Below, in pieces: positions 54,087 to 59,014 of a DNA stretch of 64,000 nucleotides. The stretch is from Methyloversatilis sp. RAC08 (GTDB lineage Bacteria; Pseudomonadota; Gammaproteobacteria; Burkholderiales; Rhodocyclaceae). Location: assembly GCF_001713355.1 (NCBI RefSeq), contig NZ_CP016448.1, forward strand, positions 3,472,001 through 3,536,000, read 5' to 3'. A program made the translations under genes and the position numbers. A model generated the notes under the pieces. That model had not been told where the DNA came from and searched no databases. It saw only the letters and a program-made list of their open reading frames with translations. Within the stretch, counting starts at the first letter, position 1. Each line of letters begins with the position of its first letter.

Positions 54087-54526
54087 ATCTCGCGACCCGT
54101 CAGCCGTCAGCGGCCCCGCCCATCCTGCTGGTCGAAGACAACCCGGTCGATATCGATCTGACCTGCCGCGCCTTCGCGCGCGACCCGCTGGCCGGTCCGG
54201 TCAGCGTGGCGCGGGATGGCGAAACGGCGCTCGATTTCATGCAGCGCTGGGACAAGGGCGAGCCGCCGCCTGCGCTGATCCTGCTCGACATCAACCTGCC
54301 GGGCGTCAATGGCTTCGAGGTGCTGCGCCAGCTGAAGCGCCATCCGGTGCATCGCAGCATTCCGGTGGTGATGCTGAGTTCGTCGGCGGAACACCGTGAC
54401 CTGCTCGATGCCTATTCGCTGGGCGTCAATTCCTTCATCGTCAAGCCGGTGGATTTTGATCGTTTCGTCGAAGCGGCGGGCCAGATCGGACGATACTGGT
54501 TCGAACTCAACCAGCCGCCGATCTGA
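54083..54526 (+). CDS. Single-domain response regulator (Rcp1-like)
   Basis: 147 residues, receiver only: [18 protein letters not shown], phospho-Asp in ILLDINLPGVNGFEVL, and the Lys in FIVKPVDFD. It is coupled to the kinase upstream (ATGA) and its stop shares a base with the next start (TGATG). It is a shuttle from the kinase to another protein, possibly the GGDEF-EAL protein next door. Confidence 0.93.
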   Translation: MNLATRQPSAAPPILLVEDNPVDIDLTCRAFARDPLAGPVSVARDGETALDFMQRWDKGEPPPALILLDINLPGVNGFEVLRQLKRHPVHRSIPVVMLSSSAEHRDLLDAYSLGVNSFIVKPVDFDRFVEAAGQIGRYWFELNQPPI

Positions 54527-57500
54527 TGCGCATCCTCTACGCAGAAGATTCGGAATTTGATGCCGATCTGACGCAGCGTGCGCTGCGCCGCAGCGGCAGC
54601 GTACTTGACATAGAAATCGTGCCCACGCTGGAGGACGCGCGTCAGCGTCTCGCCCGGGCTGGTGTCGACCTGCTGCTGACCGACCTCAAGCTGCCCGACG
54701 GCAGCGGGCTCGAATTGCTGGCTCACATCAGGGAACACGCCCTGCCGGTCGCGGTGGTGGTGCTGACCGGGTCGGGCGACGGCAGTTCGGCGATTGCCGC
54801 GCTGAAGGCGGGTGCCGACGACTACCTCATCAAGTCCGGCTCCTACCTCGAACGGTTGCCGCGCGTGCTTGACGCCGCCTTGCTCAGGCACCGTTCGATG
54901 TCGGCGCGGTGCGACCGGCCGATCCGCGTGCTGTGCGCCGAATCGAGCCTTGAAGATGTGGAACTGATGCGCGGTCACCTCCTCAAGCATGCGCCGCAGA
55001 TCCGGCTGGAAAGCACCGGCGGCACCGATGCGGTGATCAGCCGGCTGCAAGCCGGCCCGGAAGCCGAAGCGACTTTCGACGTGCTGCTGATCGACGCGCT
55101 GCCCGATGAAACGACAGGGCTCGACCTCGTGAAGCTGATCCGCAGCGAGCGCCAGCTGTCCCTCCCCATCGTCATGTTGGCGGGTCAGGACAGCGAGCAG
55201 CTGGCATCCAGCGCCTTGCATCTGGGTGTCGACGACTATCTGGTCAAGCATCCCGGCTATCTGTTCGAGCTGCCGGCCACGCTGGAGAAAGTCCATCGCC
55301 GGGCCGAGCTGGTGCTTGAGAGCGAACGTCTCAACGCCACCAACCAGCGCATGTCGCAACTGCTCGCGGCCAGTCCGACCATCGTCTACAGCCTGCGCGA
55401 GCAGGACGGCGAGTACCAGTCGTCATGGGTCAGCGAAAACGTGACCCGCATTCTTGGCTATACGGTGGCCGAAGTACTGGCGCCAGGCTGGTGGCAGGCC
55501 GGCCTTCATGCGCAGGACCGGAATACAGCGCTGGCGCGCTCCGAAGGTCTCCTGCTGGACGGACAGCTCAGCCTCGAATATCGATTCCGGCGGCGTGACG
55601 GCAGCGAAATCTGGGTCCGCGACGAGTTGCGACGGGTTGGCCAGAGCGGTGATTCCGGTGCCGAATTCGTGGGCTCCTGGACCGATGTCAGCGCCGACAA
55701 GCGCGTCGCGCTGATCGGCGAGGCGCGTGCCGAAGTGCTCGACCGCATCGTTGCGGCCGAGCCGCTGTCCGTCATTCTCGAGGCGATTGCGCTGCGCATG
55801 CAGGCGATCGAGCCGGCAACGCGCGTATCGATCCAGCTGCTGCATGAAGTGAGCGGCCGGCTGGTGAATGGCGCTGCGCCCTCGCTGCCCGAGCGCTATC
55901 TGCAGGCGATAGAAGGTGTGCTGCCAGGCCCGGGCACCGGCTCCTGCGGCACGTCGGCGTGGTCGGGCGAAACTGTGCTGGTCGAGAACGTGTTCGAGCA
56001 CCCGTACTGGGCGCCATATGTCGAGCTGGCGCGGCTGGGTGGCTTCAGTGCCTGCTGGTCGGTCCCCTACAAGGACAAGGACGGGCGTGTGCTCGGTACC
56101 TTTGCGCTCTATCACGACACCCCCTGCCTGCCGGACGCTGCGCAGCTTGAGCTGATCAACGATTTCAGCCGCATCACTGGCCTGGCGGTTCAGAAGGTGC
56201 GCGCAGCCACCGCGCTCAGGCAGGCCGGAGCGGTGTTCGAAAGCACGCGTGACGGCATCTTCATTACCGATCTCGAGGCGCAGATCGTCGCCGTCAATCG
56301 AGCATTCACCCATATCAGCGGCTACAGCGAGTTCGAAGCCATCGGCCAGACACCGCGCATGCTGCAGTCGGGACGCCACGACGAGCGGTTCTACCAGGTC
56401 ATGTGGTCGACCGTTCTGGCCAGCGGCAACTGGCAGGGCGAAGTATGGAACCGGCGCAAGAATGGCGAGCTTTACCAGCAGCTGCTCACCATCAGCACGG
56501 TGCGCAACGAAGCCGGCGCGCCCAGTCACTATGTTGCCGTCATGACCGACATCAGCCAGCTCAAGCGCTCGGAAGCCAAGCTCGACTATCTGGCCCACCA
56601 CGATCCGCTGACCGATCTGCCGAACCGACTGTTGATGCAATCGCGCATCCAGCACGCCATCGAACGTGCCGCACGCAGCCGTTGCCATCTTGCGCTGCTG
56701 TTCATCGATCTGGACCGCTTCAAGAACGTGAACGACAGCCTGGGCCATCCGGCCGGCGACGAACTTCTGGCCGCGATTGCGAAGCGGTTGCGCAGCCGGC
56801 TGCGCGAGGTGGATACGCTGGCCCGGCTCGGTGGCGACGAATTCGTGCTGCTGATCGAGGAAATGACGGTGCCGGAAGACGCCGCCATCGTCGCGCAGAT
56901 GCTGATCGACCTGCTGACGGCGCCGTTCAGTCTGTCCCAGGGGCGCGAGATCTACATCGGCGCGAGCATCGGCATTTCGGTGTTTCCGGACGACGGCCGC
57001 ACTGTGACGGAGCTGATCCAGCATTCCGATGTGGCGATGTACCAGGCCAAGGAAGCCGGGCGCGGCGCGTTCCGCTTCTACACCGAAGCGATGAGCCGCG
57101 CCGCGCAGGACCGGCTGCATCTGGACACGCGGCTGCGCCGCGCGCTGGAGCGCGGCGAATTCACGCTGCACTACCAGCCGCAGATCGACATGGCCACCGG
57201 TCGGCTGACCGGTGCCGAAGCGCTGGTGCGCTGGATCGATCCGGAAGAGGGCGTCATTTCACCGGCGCGCTTCATACCGGTGGCGGAAGAGACCGGTCTG
57301 ATCGTGCCGATCGGCGAGTGGGTGCTGCGCACGGCCTGTGCCCAGGTGCGCGCGTGGCGCGATGCCGGTCAGGTCCTGACGGTGGCGGTCAACCTGTCGG
57401 CACGCCAACTGCAGCAGGCTGATCTCGCCCAGCGCGTGGCCGCATTGATGGCGGAATTCGGCATCGGTCCGGACTGGCTCGAATTCGAACTGACCGAATC

Positions 57501-57873
57501 GATGCTGGCCGGCGAACAGGCCTCGACCGAACTGCGGCTGCGCGAGCTCAAGGCGCTCGGCATTGCGCTGTCGATCGATGATTTCGGCACCGGCTATTCG
57601 TCGCTGGCCTATCTGAAGCGTTTTCCGATCGACGTGCTCAAGATCGACCAGAGCTTCGTGCGCGACATCCCGCACGACCGCAATGACATGGAAATCGCCG
57701 CCACGATCATCGCCATGGCGCACACGCTGAAACTGCGCGTCGTGGCCGAAGGTGTCGAAACCCCCGAACAGCTGGCGTTCCTGAAGGAGCGCGACTGCGA
57801 TGCCTGGCAGGGTTATCTGTACAGCAAACCGCTGCCCGGCGAAGAATTCGCGTTTCGTTTCCTGCAGGGCTGA
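54526..57873 (+). CDS. REC-REC-PAS-GAF-PAS-GGDEF-EAL cyclic-di-GMP protein
   Basis: 1115 residues, no membrane segment. Receiver 1 (ILYAEDSEFDADLT; LLLTDLKLPDGSG), receiver 2 (VLLIDALPDETTG near 188), PAS about 280-400, GAF about 405-555, PAS about 565-680, GGDEF with an intact RLGGDEFVLL (about 768) and EAL with GAEALVRW (about 896), FELTES, DDFGTGYSSL, LKIDQSFV and EGVETPEQ. Both catalytic sites look complete, so it could make or break cyclic-di-GMP. It ends the coupled run from the lipoprotein gene. Confidence 0.94.
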   Translation: MRILYAEDSEFDADLTQRALRRSGSVLDIEIVPTLEDARQRLARAGVDLLLTDLKLPDGSGLELLAHIREHALPVAVVVLTGSGDGSSAIAALKAGADDYLIKSGSYLERLPRVLDAALLRHRSMSARCDRPIRVLCAESSLEDVELMRGHLLKHAPQIRLESTGGTDAVISRLQAGPEAEATFDVLLIDALPDETTGLDLVKLIRSERQLSLPIVMLAGQDSEQLASSALHLGVDDYLVKHPGYLFELPATLEKVHRRAELVLESERLNATNQRMSQLLAASPTIVYSLREQDGEYQSSWVSENVTRILGYTVAEVLAPGWWQAGLHAQDRNTALARSEGLLLDGQLSLEYRFRRRDGSEIWVRDELRRVGQSGDSGAEFVGSWTDVSADKRVALIGEARAEVLDRIVAAEPLSVILEAIALRMQAIEPATRVSIQLLHEVSGRLVNGAAPSLPERYLQAIEGVLPGPGTGSCGTSAWSGETVLVENVFEHPYWAPYVELARLGGFSACWSVPYKDKDGRVLGTFALYHDTPCLPDAAQLELINDFSRITGLAVQKVRAATALRQAGAVFESTRDGIFITDLEAQIVAVNRAFTHISGYSEFEAIGQTPRMLQSGRHDERFYQVMWSTVLASGNWQGEVWNRRKNGELYQQLLTISTVRNEAGAPSHYVAVMTDISQLKRSEAKLDYLAHHDPLTDLPNRLLMQSRIQHAIERAARSRCHLALLFIDLDRFKNVNDSLGHPAGDELLAAIAKRLRSRLREVDTLARLGGDEFVLLIEEMTVPEDAAIVAQMLIDLLTAPFSLSQGREIYIGASIGISVFPDDGRTVTELIQHSDVAMYQAKEAGRGAFRFYTEAMSRAAQDRLHLDTRLRRALERGEFTLHYQPQIDMATGRLTGAEALVRWIDPEEGVISPARFIPVAEETGLIVPIGEWVLRTACAQVRAWRDAGQVLTVAVNLSARQLQQADLAQRVAALMAEFGIGPDWLEFELTESMLAGEQASTELRLRELKALGIALSIDDFGTGYSSLAYLKRFPIDVLKIDQSFVRDIPHDRNDMEIAATIIAMAHTLKLRVVAEGVETPEQLAFLKERDCDAWQGYLYSKPLPGEEFAFRFLQG

Positions 57874-57921
57874 TCGCACCTGACTGCAAGCCTTAGTGGC
57901 GCGCCTGTTGGAGCAACGGCC

Positions 57922-58004
57922 TGTGGGAGCGGCGGCCTCGCCGCGATCGAGCAGCGATGGTCGATGATCAGCGTGCACATCGCGGCGAGGCCGCCGCTCC
58001 CACA
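57922..58004. repeat. 26-bp perfect palindromic (REP-like) element
   Basis: The 26 bases at 57922-57947 (starting TGTGGGAGCGGCGG) are the exact reverse complement of 57979-58004, around a 31-base loop. Elements beginning TGTGGGAGCGGC are common dispersed palindromes in proteobacteria. It can also fold as a strong transcript end for the signalling operon. Confidence 0.85.
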
Positions 58005-58328
58005 GGGAAGCTCCCACAGGGAAGCTCCCACAGGGAAGCTCCCACAGGGAAGCTCCCACAGGGAAGCTCCCACAGGGAAGCTCCCACAGGGAAGCTCCCA
58101 CAGGGAAGCTCCCACAGGGAAGCTCCCACAGGGAAGCTCCCACAGGGAAGCTCCCACAGGGAAGCTCCCACAGGGAAGCTCCCACAGGGAAGCTCCCACA
58201 GGGAAGCTCCCACAGGGAAGCTCCCACAGGGAAGCTCCCACAGGGAAGCTCCCACAGGGAAGCTCCCACAGGGAAGCTCCCACAGGAAGCTCCCACAGGC
58301 AAGCTCCCACAGGCAAGCTCCCACAGGG
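57996..58328. repeat. 14-bp tandem repeat array, about 23 copies
   Basis: Unit GCTCCCACAGGGAA. Twenty perfect copies run from 57996 to 58275, then one 13-base copy (58276-58288), two copies with GGC for GGG (58289-58316) and a partial copy. The first unit overlaps the right arm of the palindrome, so the array looks like an amplification of its edge. Frames through it give only low-complexity peptide and are not genes. The gap 57874-58354 holds nothing else. Confidence 0.95.
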
Positions 58329-58354
58329 CGGCCGCCCTGCCGGGTGGTGGGTGG

Positions 58355-59014
58355 TCACCCGGCGATGTTCTTGTCCTTGAACCGGCACAGGTCGTTGATG
58401 TTGCACTGGCCGCACAGCGGCTTGCGTGCGGTGCAGGTATAGCGGCCGTGCAGGATGAGCCAGTGGTGGGCGTGGTCCATGAATTCCGTCGGCACCACCT
58501 TGAGCAGCGCCTGTTCGACGGCGACCACGTCCTTGCCGGGCGCGAGGCCGATGCGGTTCGAAATGCGGAAGATGTGCGTGTCTACCGCCATGGTCGGCTG
58601 GCCGAACACGATGTTCAGCACCACATTGGCCGTCTTGCGGCCGACGCCGGGCAGCGCTTCGAGCGCGGCGCGGTCATTCGGCACTTCGCCACCGTGCTTC
58701 TCCAGCAACTGATGCGACAGCGACACGACGTTCTTCGCCTTGGCGCGGAACAGACCGATGGTCCTGATGCAGTCCTCGACGCCCGCGACACCGAGGCTGA
58801 CCATCGCTTCCGGCGTCGGCGCCGCAGGAAACAGCCGGCGCGTGGCGACATTCACGCCCTTGTCGGTCGCCTGCGCCGACAGCACCACCGCGACCAGCAG
58901 CTGGAACGGCGAGCCGTACTCGAGATCGCTTTTCGGATGCGGGTTGGCGGCGCGCCAGCGCTCGAACATCGTCTGGATGTCGGCGCGCGCGAGCTTGCTG
59001 ACCCGTGCCCCCAT
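58355..59014 (-). CDS. nth: Endonuclease III
   Basis: DNA glycosylase/AP lyase for oxidised pyrimidines. 219 residues. Helix-hairpin-helix LPGVGRKTANVV with the catalytic Lys (about 127), Asp (about 145) in AVDTHIFR, and the iron-sulfur cluster ligands Cys about 194, 201, 204 and 210 (CTARKPLCGQCNINDLC). A longer in-frame upstream extension runs antiparallel to nothing real and lies in rsxE. The start overlaps the rsxE stop, the conserved rsx-nth arrangement. Confidence 0.96.
   Translation of the reverse strand: MGARVSKLARADIQTMFERWRAANPHPKSDLEYGSPFQLLVAVVLSAQATDKGVNVATRRLFPAAPTPEAMVSLGVAGVEDCIRTIGLFRAKAKNVVSLSHQLLEKHGGEVPNDRAALEALPGVGRKTANVVLNIVFGQPTMAVDTHIFRISNRIGLAPGKDVVAVEQALLKVVPTEFMDHAHHWLILHGRYTCTARKPLCGQCNINDLCRFKDKNIAG

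Follow-up and report, generated by a model that had tools for sequence, protein, structure and literature searches.

Replication-polarised tandem arrays at the outer edges of REPINs in Methyloversatilis sp. RAC08

Results

The array at the window locus

The DNA analysed here is a stretch of 64,000 nucleotides (the window) at positions 3,472,001-3,536,000 of the genome of Methyloversatilis sp. RAC08 (G000), which consists of one contig of 3,937,190 bases. A palindrome followed by a tandem array lies there between a gene that we take, from its sequence, to code for a GGDEF/EAL-type regulator and one that is presumably nth (endonuclease III; Table 1). As the first is on the plus strand and the second on the minus strand, the two genes are convergent and the array stands between two gene ends. 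The array contains 24 exact heads (GCTCCCACAG) at 57996-58328 in a 14-bp unit, and TRF describes it with a period of 14, 23.9 copies, 98% matches and a score of 645, which makes it a minisatellite or VNTR in the sense of tandem units of at least 10 bp. With at most one mismatch allowed, CTGTGGGAGC was found 31 times in the window when 5.8 matches were expected, and at least 31 were reached in 0 of 100 shuffles. The spacing between heads is 14 in 20 perfect steps that adjoin the palindrome, followed by 13, 14 and 14, and the final two spacers read GGCAA in place of GGGAA, so the variants are distal. An earlier note on this DNA had described a 14-mer array with variants at its distal end, starting within the right arm of a palindrome, and both points hold, the first unit sitting in the arm at 57979-58006. 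The palindrome is also perfect, as claimed there, although not of 26 bp: its arms (57920-57947 and 57979-58006) are 28 bp long, 100% complementary and 31 nt apart.

Table 1. Features at the array locus, in window coordinates
Feature	Position	Strand	Basis
Upstream gene	54526..57873	+	ORF; convergent with nth
Degenerate 16-bp duplication on the origin side, 2.2 copies, running into the left REP	57903..57938	+	TRF
Whole REPIN, 87 bp	57920..58006		Inverted repeat and predicted fold
Left REP: head CCTGTGGGAGC and small hairpin GCGGCG-GCCT-CGCCGC; origin-side end	57920..57947	+	Inverted-repeat arm; hairpin predicted
REPIN loop, 31 nt	57948..57978		Inverted repeat
Right REP at the terminus-side end, with its head as first array unit	57979..58006	-	Inverted repeat; dnaA and GC skew
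REP-edge array, 24 heads, unit CTGTGGGAGC-TTCC (14 bp, toward the REPIN)	57996..58328	-	TRF and motif matches
Distal variant units: a step of 13 bp followed by two units that have GGCAA as spacer	58286..58328	-	Read from the sequence
nth, neighbour anchoring the orthologous-site comparison	58358..59014	-	ORF; convergent

The units are contiguous and identical, without the unique spacers of similar length that separate the repeats of a CRISPR. A search of viral contigs with the array unit gave 0 matches, as did Rfam over the whole window. An effect on termination, as raised in the earlier note, is at most conjectural, and a role as terminator is unsupported: no intrinsic terminator, with its GC-rich stem and subsequent T run, was matched at the REPIN or the array in a search of 57750-58450, the two terminator-like matches in this interval (57839-57851 and 58338-58364) both lie outside the array, and the flanking genes are convergent. 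Coding function is likewise unsupported. Long ORFs cross the array on both strands (57813-58442), which a stop-free 14-bp unit permits, and automatic annotation may call spurious proteins there.

The palindrome belongs to a REPIN family

CTGTGGGAGC followed by GCGGCG-GCCT-CGCCGC constitutes a REP with a GTGG head, and the two inverted REPs form a REPIN, whose predicted single-strand DNA fold (plus strand) has -49.5 kcal/mol and a z of -11.8. The heads face outward and lie 50-110 bp apart, as in the 100 such elements examined. The family has many copies, with 225 matches to GTGGGAGCG-N8-11-CGCGA in G000 against 1 in the reversed control, and 226 heads followed by NNCNNC against 1 in the control. 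Furthermore, the genome has a RAYT gene beside elements of the same family, intact and between REPINs (G000:C1:415159; 147 aa, NF047646, 136 bits with a cut-off of 80). The window tag is GTGG instead of the GTAG of the REP superfamily, whose definition may admit GTGG; in G000, 1 GTAG-type match stands against 225 of GTGG type. Across the 100 REPINs, the loops are themselves oriented unevenly relative to the replication fork (66 vs 29, p=1.9e-4, with 5/100 unclear). REPINs are directly adjoined by an IS110-family element (transposase of 321 aa, NF033542, 192 bits) at several G000 loci, including L165 (G000:C1:413426-414709), L155, L149, L117, L110 and L111, and also in one G012 stretch; the available text of PMC1525189 reports insertion of IS elements at REPs.

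Arrays lie nearly always on the terminus side of REPINs

Head pairs separated by 2-15 nt occur 265 times in G000 and 0 times in the control. One plan was found in 89 head clusters, consisting of a REPIN core with extra heads outward only, oriented like the adjacent head, and the linkers mostly differ between the two sides of a REPIN and between loci. The 100 REPINs of G000, examined within 40% of the chromosome by mismatch search, comprise 81 from 0-2.98 Mb, taken from the matches listed, and 19 from 2.98-3.94 Mb, a part scanned nearly whole. Their extra heads (142 left, 113 right) come near the whole-genome totals of head pairs (148 and 117), so long exact-head arrays were hardly missed; below 2.98 Mb, arrays whose heads are altered may have escaped the sample. 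Tandem repeats with a unit of 5-30 bp and a start no more than 25 nt from the stem were counted as arrays and scored. For fork direction, dnaA lies at 2,005,180, away from the contig start and at a switch of the GC skew from negative to positive, and the skew flips back near 3.836 Mb; since a dif-site pattern gave 0 matches, the terminus was set at this flip. From dnaA and GC skew the fork runs rightward at the window, which puts the window array on the terminus side.

Of the 200 sides of the 100 REPINs, 41 carried an array with a score of at least 40, of which 38 faced the terminus and 3 the origin (p=1e-8); the 38 are not fully independent, since 31/38 of their units are distinct. The window array is an outward extension of one REPIN end, one of 41 such arrays. 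The earlier note had recognised neither the REPIN nature of the palindrome nor the genome-wide occurrence of the arrays and their polarity relative to the replication fork. Placing the terminus at the contig end changed the counts to 39 vs 2, and other cut-offs gave 27 vs 1 (at least 60) and 44 vs 17 (at least 20). When exact heads were counted, terminus and origin sides had 18 vs 0 arrays with at least 5 heads, 22 vs 1 with at least 4, 28 vs 9 with at least 3 and 37 vs 37 with at least 2. The origin-side exceptions at the score of at least 40 are at 1,261,937, where the unit has REP-stem letters, at 3,752,925 and at 3,861,840, just beyond the skew-defined terminus; the part scanned nearly whole (2.98-3.94 Mb) had 9 vs 2.

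According to simple gene calls (open frame and GC3), the terminus side was preferred between convergent genes (20 vs 3; 45 REPINs) and between divergent ones (6 vs 0; 17 REPINs), which means that transcription direction is not the explanation; the remaining contexts gave 9 vs 0 (co-directional), 2 vs 0 (head-on) and 1 vs 0 (unclear). Array side follows the fork and not the loop orientation, as REPINs with loops concordant with the fork had 29 vs 1 and discordant ones 9 vs 2, the latter set alone with a two-sided p of 0.065. Array score showed no dependence on the distance from the origin (Spearman 0.015, p=0.88).

Anatomy of the arrays

Among the 38 terminus-side arrays, the period is 13-16 bp in 27 and 5-7, 12, 19-21 or 30 in the others. 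All 38 start 0-7 nt from the stem edge, and 23 of them at 0, within the 0-25 allowed. Mismatches to the array's own consensus numbered 7 in proximal and 51 in distal halves, with more of them distal in 12 of the 14 unequal arrays (p=0.013), more proximal in the other 2, and equal numbers in 24. Linkers between exact heads that do not begin with GG or GA were found in 27/41 cases on the terminus side and 6/41 on the origin side (p=3.8e-6), and 35/41 origin-side duplications have REP-stem linkers. The linker TTGC occurs on 5 sides and TGTTCC on 4, at loci that are unlinked and whose REPIN loops differ, and both recur in arrays of G000 and G012. Very short terminus-side units also exist beside REPINs, of 5 bp in about 38 copies and 6 bp in about 11 (G000:C1 2,496,042 and 2,079,935).

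The symmetry of the REPIN is related to the presence of an array. When the 21-nt arms are identical, 31/58 REPINs have a terminus-side array, compared with 6/32 for arms with 1-2 differences and 1/10 for arms with more, that is 31/58 vs 7/42 for identical and non-identical arms; this link could reflect REPIN age. Where the origin-side head was lost or mutated, 2/8 had arrays.

Related genomes

Among 61 related genomes, head pairs were present in 8, all of the same genus, with 157 in G012, a close relative, and 1 to 9 in the six remaining positive genomes. Genomes of the genus rich in GTGG REPs can lack them almost completely, as seen from the numbers of REPs and head pairs in G002 (323/0), G001 (222/1), G011 (182/0), G004 (145/2) and G005 (129/1). 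Pairs of GTAGGAGC were absent from the 12 other genomes, and G007 carries 309 GTAG-type REPs. With the same method, 0/28 REPIN sides sampled in G001 and G002 had arrays vs 39/172 in G000 (p=0.0018). Identical arms were found in 2/14 REPINs of G001/G002, a small sample, vs 58/86 in G000, and host factors too could separate these genomes. Among the matches listed, triple heads were also found in Pseudomonas, Luteibacter and others, and many, not all, of those viewed in other genera stand beside REPIN-like elements.

The site downstream of nth was compared at 10 of 13 nth loci, that of G000 included. In G012, of another species, one head and no REPIN core is found where G000 has 24 heads, and the flank abutting the distal-most head of G000 abuts this single remaining head. 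The extra G000 units therefore sit between the original head and the stem. The earlier note expected such arrays to vary between strains; the difference in copy number seen here is one between species. A lone head is present in G003, other REPs in G007, G009 and G008 and no clear REP in G010, and a different gene lies downstream in G001, G004 and G011.

Units or copy numbers mostly differ between G000 and G012 at orthologous sites: AGGC vs TCTTGC near 538 kb, TTCC x24 vs none at the window, and none vs 18 heads near 1.4656 Mb. At the site near 3.5826 Mb the two genomes share one core sequence and both carry, on the terminus side, an array of 13-bp units, homogenised to a different unit in each. 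Near 3.178 Mb both have the unit TGGCTGCCCTGTGG in nearly equal copy number, and this almost unchanged array counts against rapid turnover. Arrays of G012 placed by synteny to G000 were on the terminus side in 10 cases and on the origin side in 1 (score at least 40, p=0.012), in stretches picked for known head pairs and leaving out runs of N. By GC skew of 20-kb stretches, G012 had no bias (6 vs 9 with at least 2 heads, 3 vs 3 with at least 4). At orthologous REPIN sites of the two genomes the flanks are kept and the loop type or orientation is often swapped, for example near G000 1,453,658.

Discussion

The terminus side of a REPIN is the side that Okazaki synthesis copies just before meeting the element. 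The best explanation of the arrays, to which we give a probability of about 0.7, is that lagging-strand synthesis stalls at the REPIN hairpin and slips backward by one unit, so that the array grows on that side. On the lagging template, while it is single-stranded, the REPIN would form a strong hairpin, and the polymerase would stall at the hairpin base with a REP head at the nascent 3' end. This end could then unpair, realign backward on an earlier head-like template and be extended again, adding one unit. New units would arise beside the hairpin, while old ones move outward and decay. A stall at the hairpin base with backward realignment would account for the side on which arrays lie, for their start point and outward direction, for the uniformity of the proximal units and for the association with identical arms. 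The earlier note had proposed slippage-driven growth from the palindrome edge, a proposal that gains support here, more from the genome-wide pattern than from the single locus. With less certainty, the far-side head, having the sequence of the nascent end, may compete with it for the template, and the closing hairpin may peel the nascent end off. A more specific version, which we offer tentatively, is that the symmetric REPIN works as a cis-acting, one-way generator of minisatellites. In each round of replication, units could then be added solely at the end that lagging-strand synthesis reaches ahead of the hairpin, as the far-side head, being identical in sequence to the nascent end, would zip this end away from its template. 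Throughout the genome, array side would record fork direction, and the array itself would be a layered record of growth whose youngest units stand beside the hairpin. There is no sign of a cell function, and the array looks like a by-product of REPIN shape.

Three observations find no explanation in the model: TTGC and TGTTCC reappear at loci that are unlinked, short duplications with linkers derived from the stem show no polarity, and REPIN cores are exchanged at orthologous sites. Linker recurrence counts against pure local slippage, which does not predict it, and the unbiased two-head pairs (37 vs 37) together with the stem linkers on the origin side point to a second, non-polar process that makes short duplications. 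Hairpin slippage, as published, gives mainly deletions, which also counts against a model of expansion, as do the 2 arrays at REPINs whose origin-side head is lost or mutated and the array near 3.178 Mb that differs little between G000 and G012. Snap-back synthesis was considered as a source of linkers (TTCC, TGTCC) and was not adopted, as TTGC and TGAGACC do not fit.

RAYTs are relatives of Y1 enzymes, and a RAYT acting on the single-stranded lagging template might cut and rejoin at heads and so leave them in tandem, or insert REPINs that already bear an array at one end. Such an origin seems unlikely to us. It would agree with the intact RAYT amid same-family REPINs, with the fork bias of loop orientation itself and with identical linkers recurring at unlinked loci, but site-specific cleavage would not be expected to give starts spread over 0-7 nt or units of 5-7 bp without most of the head. 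Moreover, the fork sets the array side even in discordant REPINs (9 vs 2), orthologous cores with different units in two species indicate that arrays change in place, and sister species with RAYT-like genes and 129-323 GTGG REPs show 0-2 head pairs. A leading-strand or fork-restart event, in which the fork stalls past the REPIN or reverses and copies the sequence just beyond it again, predicts the same terminus-side position as lagging-strand slippage; since hairpins are expected chiefly on the lagging template, and since restart alone accounts neither for starts at 0-7 nt nor for the newest-looking units beside the hairpin, we regard it as improbable.

Ordinary tandem-repeat slippage or unequal recombination, acting independently of hairpin and replication direction, could produce perfect short repeats, some with locally homogenised variants, as are seen here. 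No side preference would follow from it, whereas 38 vs 3 was observed, and apart from the array at the REPIN no tandem array in the 64-kb window exceeds 2.4 copies, so that little weight can be given to this reading. Even less can be given to an assembly artefact: the copy number of one array is checkable by reads alone, but the genome is a single contig with many loci of different units, the same architecture is present in G012, and distal ends carry graded variants.

The arrays, and the slippage proposed for them, resemble several known systems. In the available text of PMC4134008, hairpin replication slippage likewise involves a stall at the hairpin base, unpairing of the 3' end and realignment on a direct repeat, and several polymerases, among them E. 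coli Pol III, are described as stalling with misalignment of the nascent end; there the outcome is deletion across the hairpin between flanking repeats, while here realignment would be backward and expansion one-sided. Single-strand transposition of IS200/IS605 on the lagging template (PMC6006769, as far as its available text goes) shares the dependence on strand and fork; it is transposition with specific cleavage, whereas the arrays have variable start points. The GGGAATC heptad arrays of Xanthomonas, as described in the available parts of PMC4692102, are also short, intergenic and genome-wide, with lengths that vary among species, and often come in two close, convergent arrays, a further likeness; they differ in their one fixed unit and in showing, according to the authors, no leading/lagging preference. 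GTAG-type REP families are similarly end-tagged palindromes with many copies, dimers and reported tandem reiteration in the accessible text of PMC3733652, which contains neither tag-only arrays nor fork polarity; the tag here is GTGG.

REPINs are already known, as are clusters of tandem REPs whose orientation depends on the chromosome arm (PMC3116915) and slippage at hairpins (PMC4134008). Searches of an open-access library turned up nothing on arrays of the REP edge or on their polarity relative to the fork, subscription papers and preprints being outside the scope, and replication-polarised REP-edge arrays are apparently new. The origin and start sites of new minisatellites have so far been inferred mostly from plasmid constructs or individual loci; the genome studied here contains 41 arrays with the same architecture, different units and a side bias of 38 vs 3, together with a close relative for comparison, and the lagging-strand hairpin model becomes directly testable in natural DNA. 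In addition, array side provides a new marker of fork direction, and REPINs gain a consequence beyond their own copying.

The REPINs of Pseudomonas fluorescens SBW25 (Bertels and Rainey 2011, PMC3116915) are likewise paired inverted REPs in a genome with a RAYT. In the available text of that paper, tandem REP arrays are forward at about 2 Mb and reverse at about 4 Mb, that is, opposite on the two chromosome arms, and what is repeated is the whole REP or REPIN with its flanks (spacings of 72 and 112 bp). In RAC08, on the other hand, the REP edge with a short linker (5-30 bp) is repeated outward from a single REPIN and the fork sets the side. Tandem clusters of whole REPINs or alternating REPs, with periods near 190, 134 and 108 bp, were also observed, at G000:C1 406,903-407,609 and 460,069-460,478 and on contigs C2, C6, C14 and C15 of G007.
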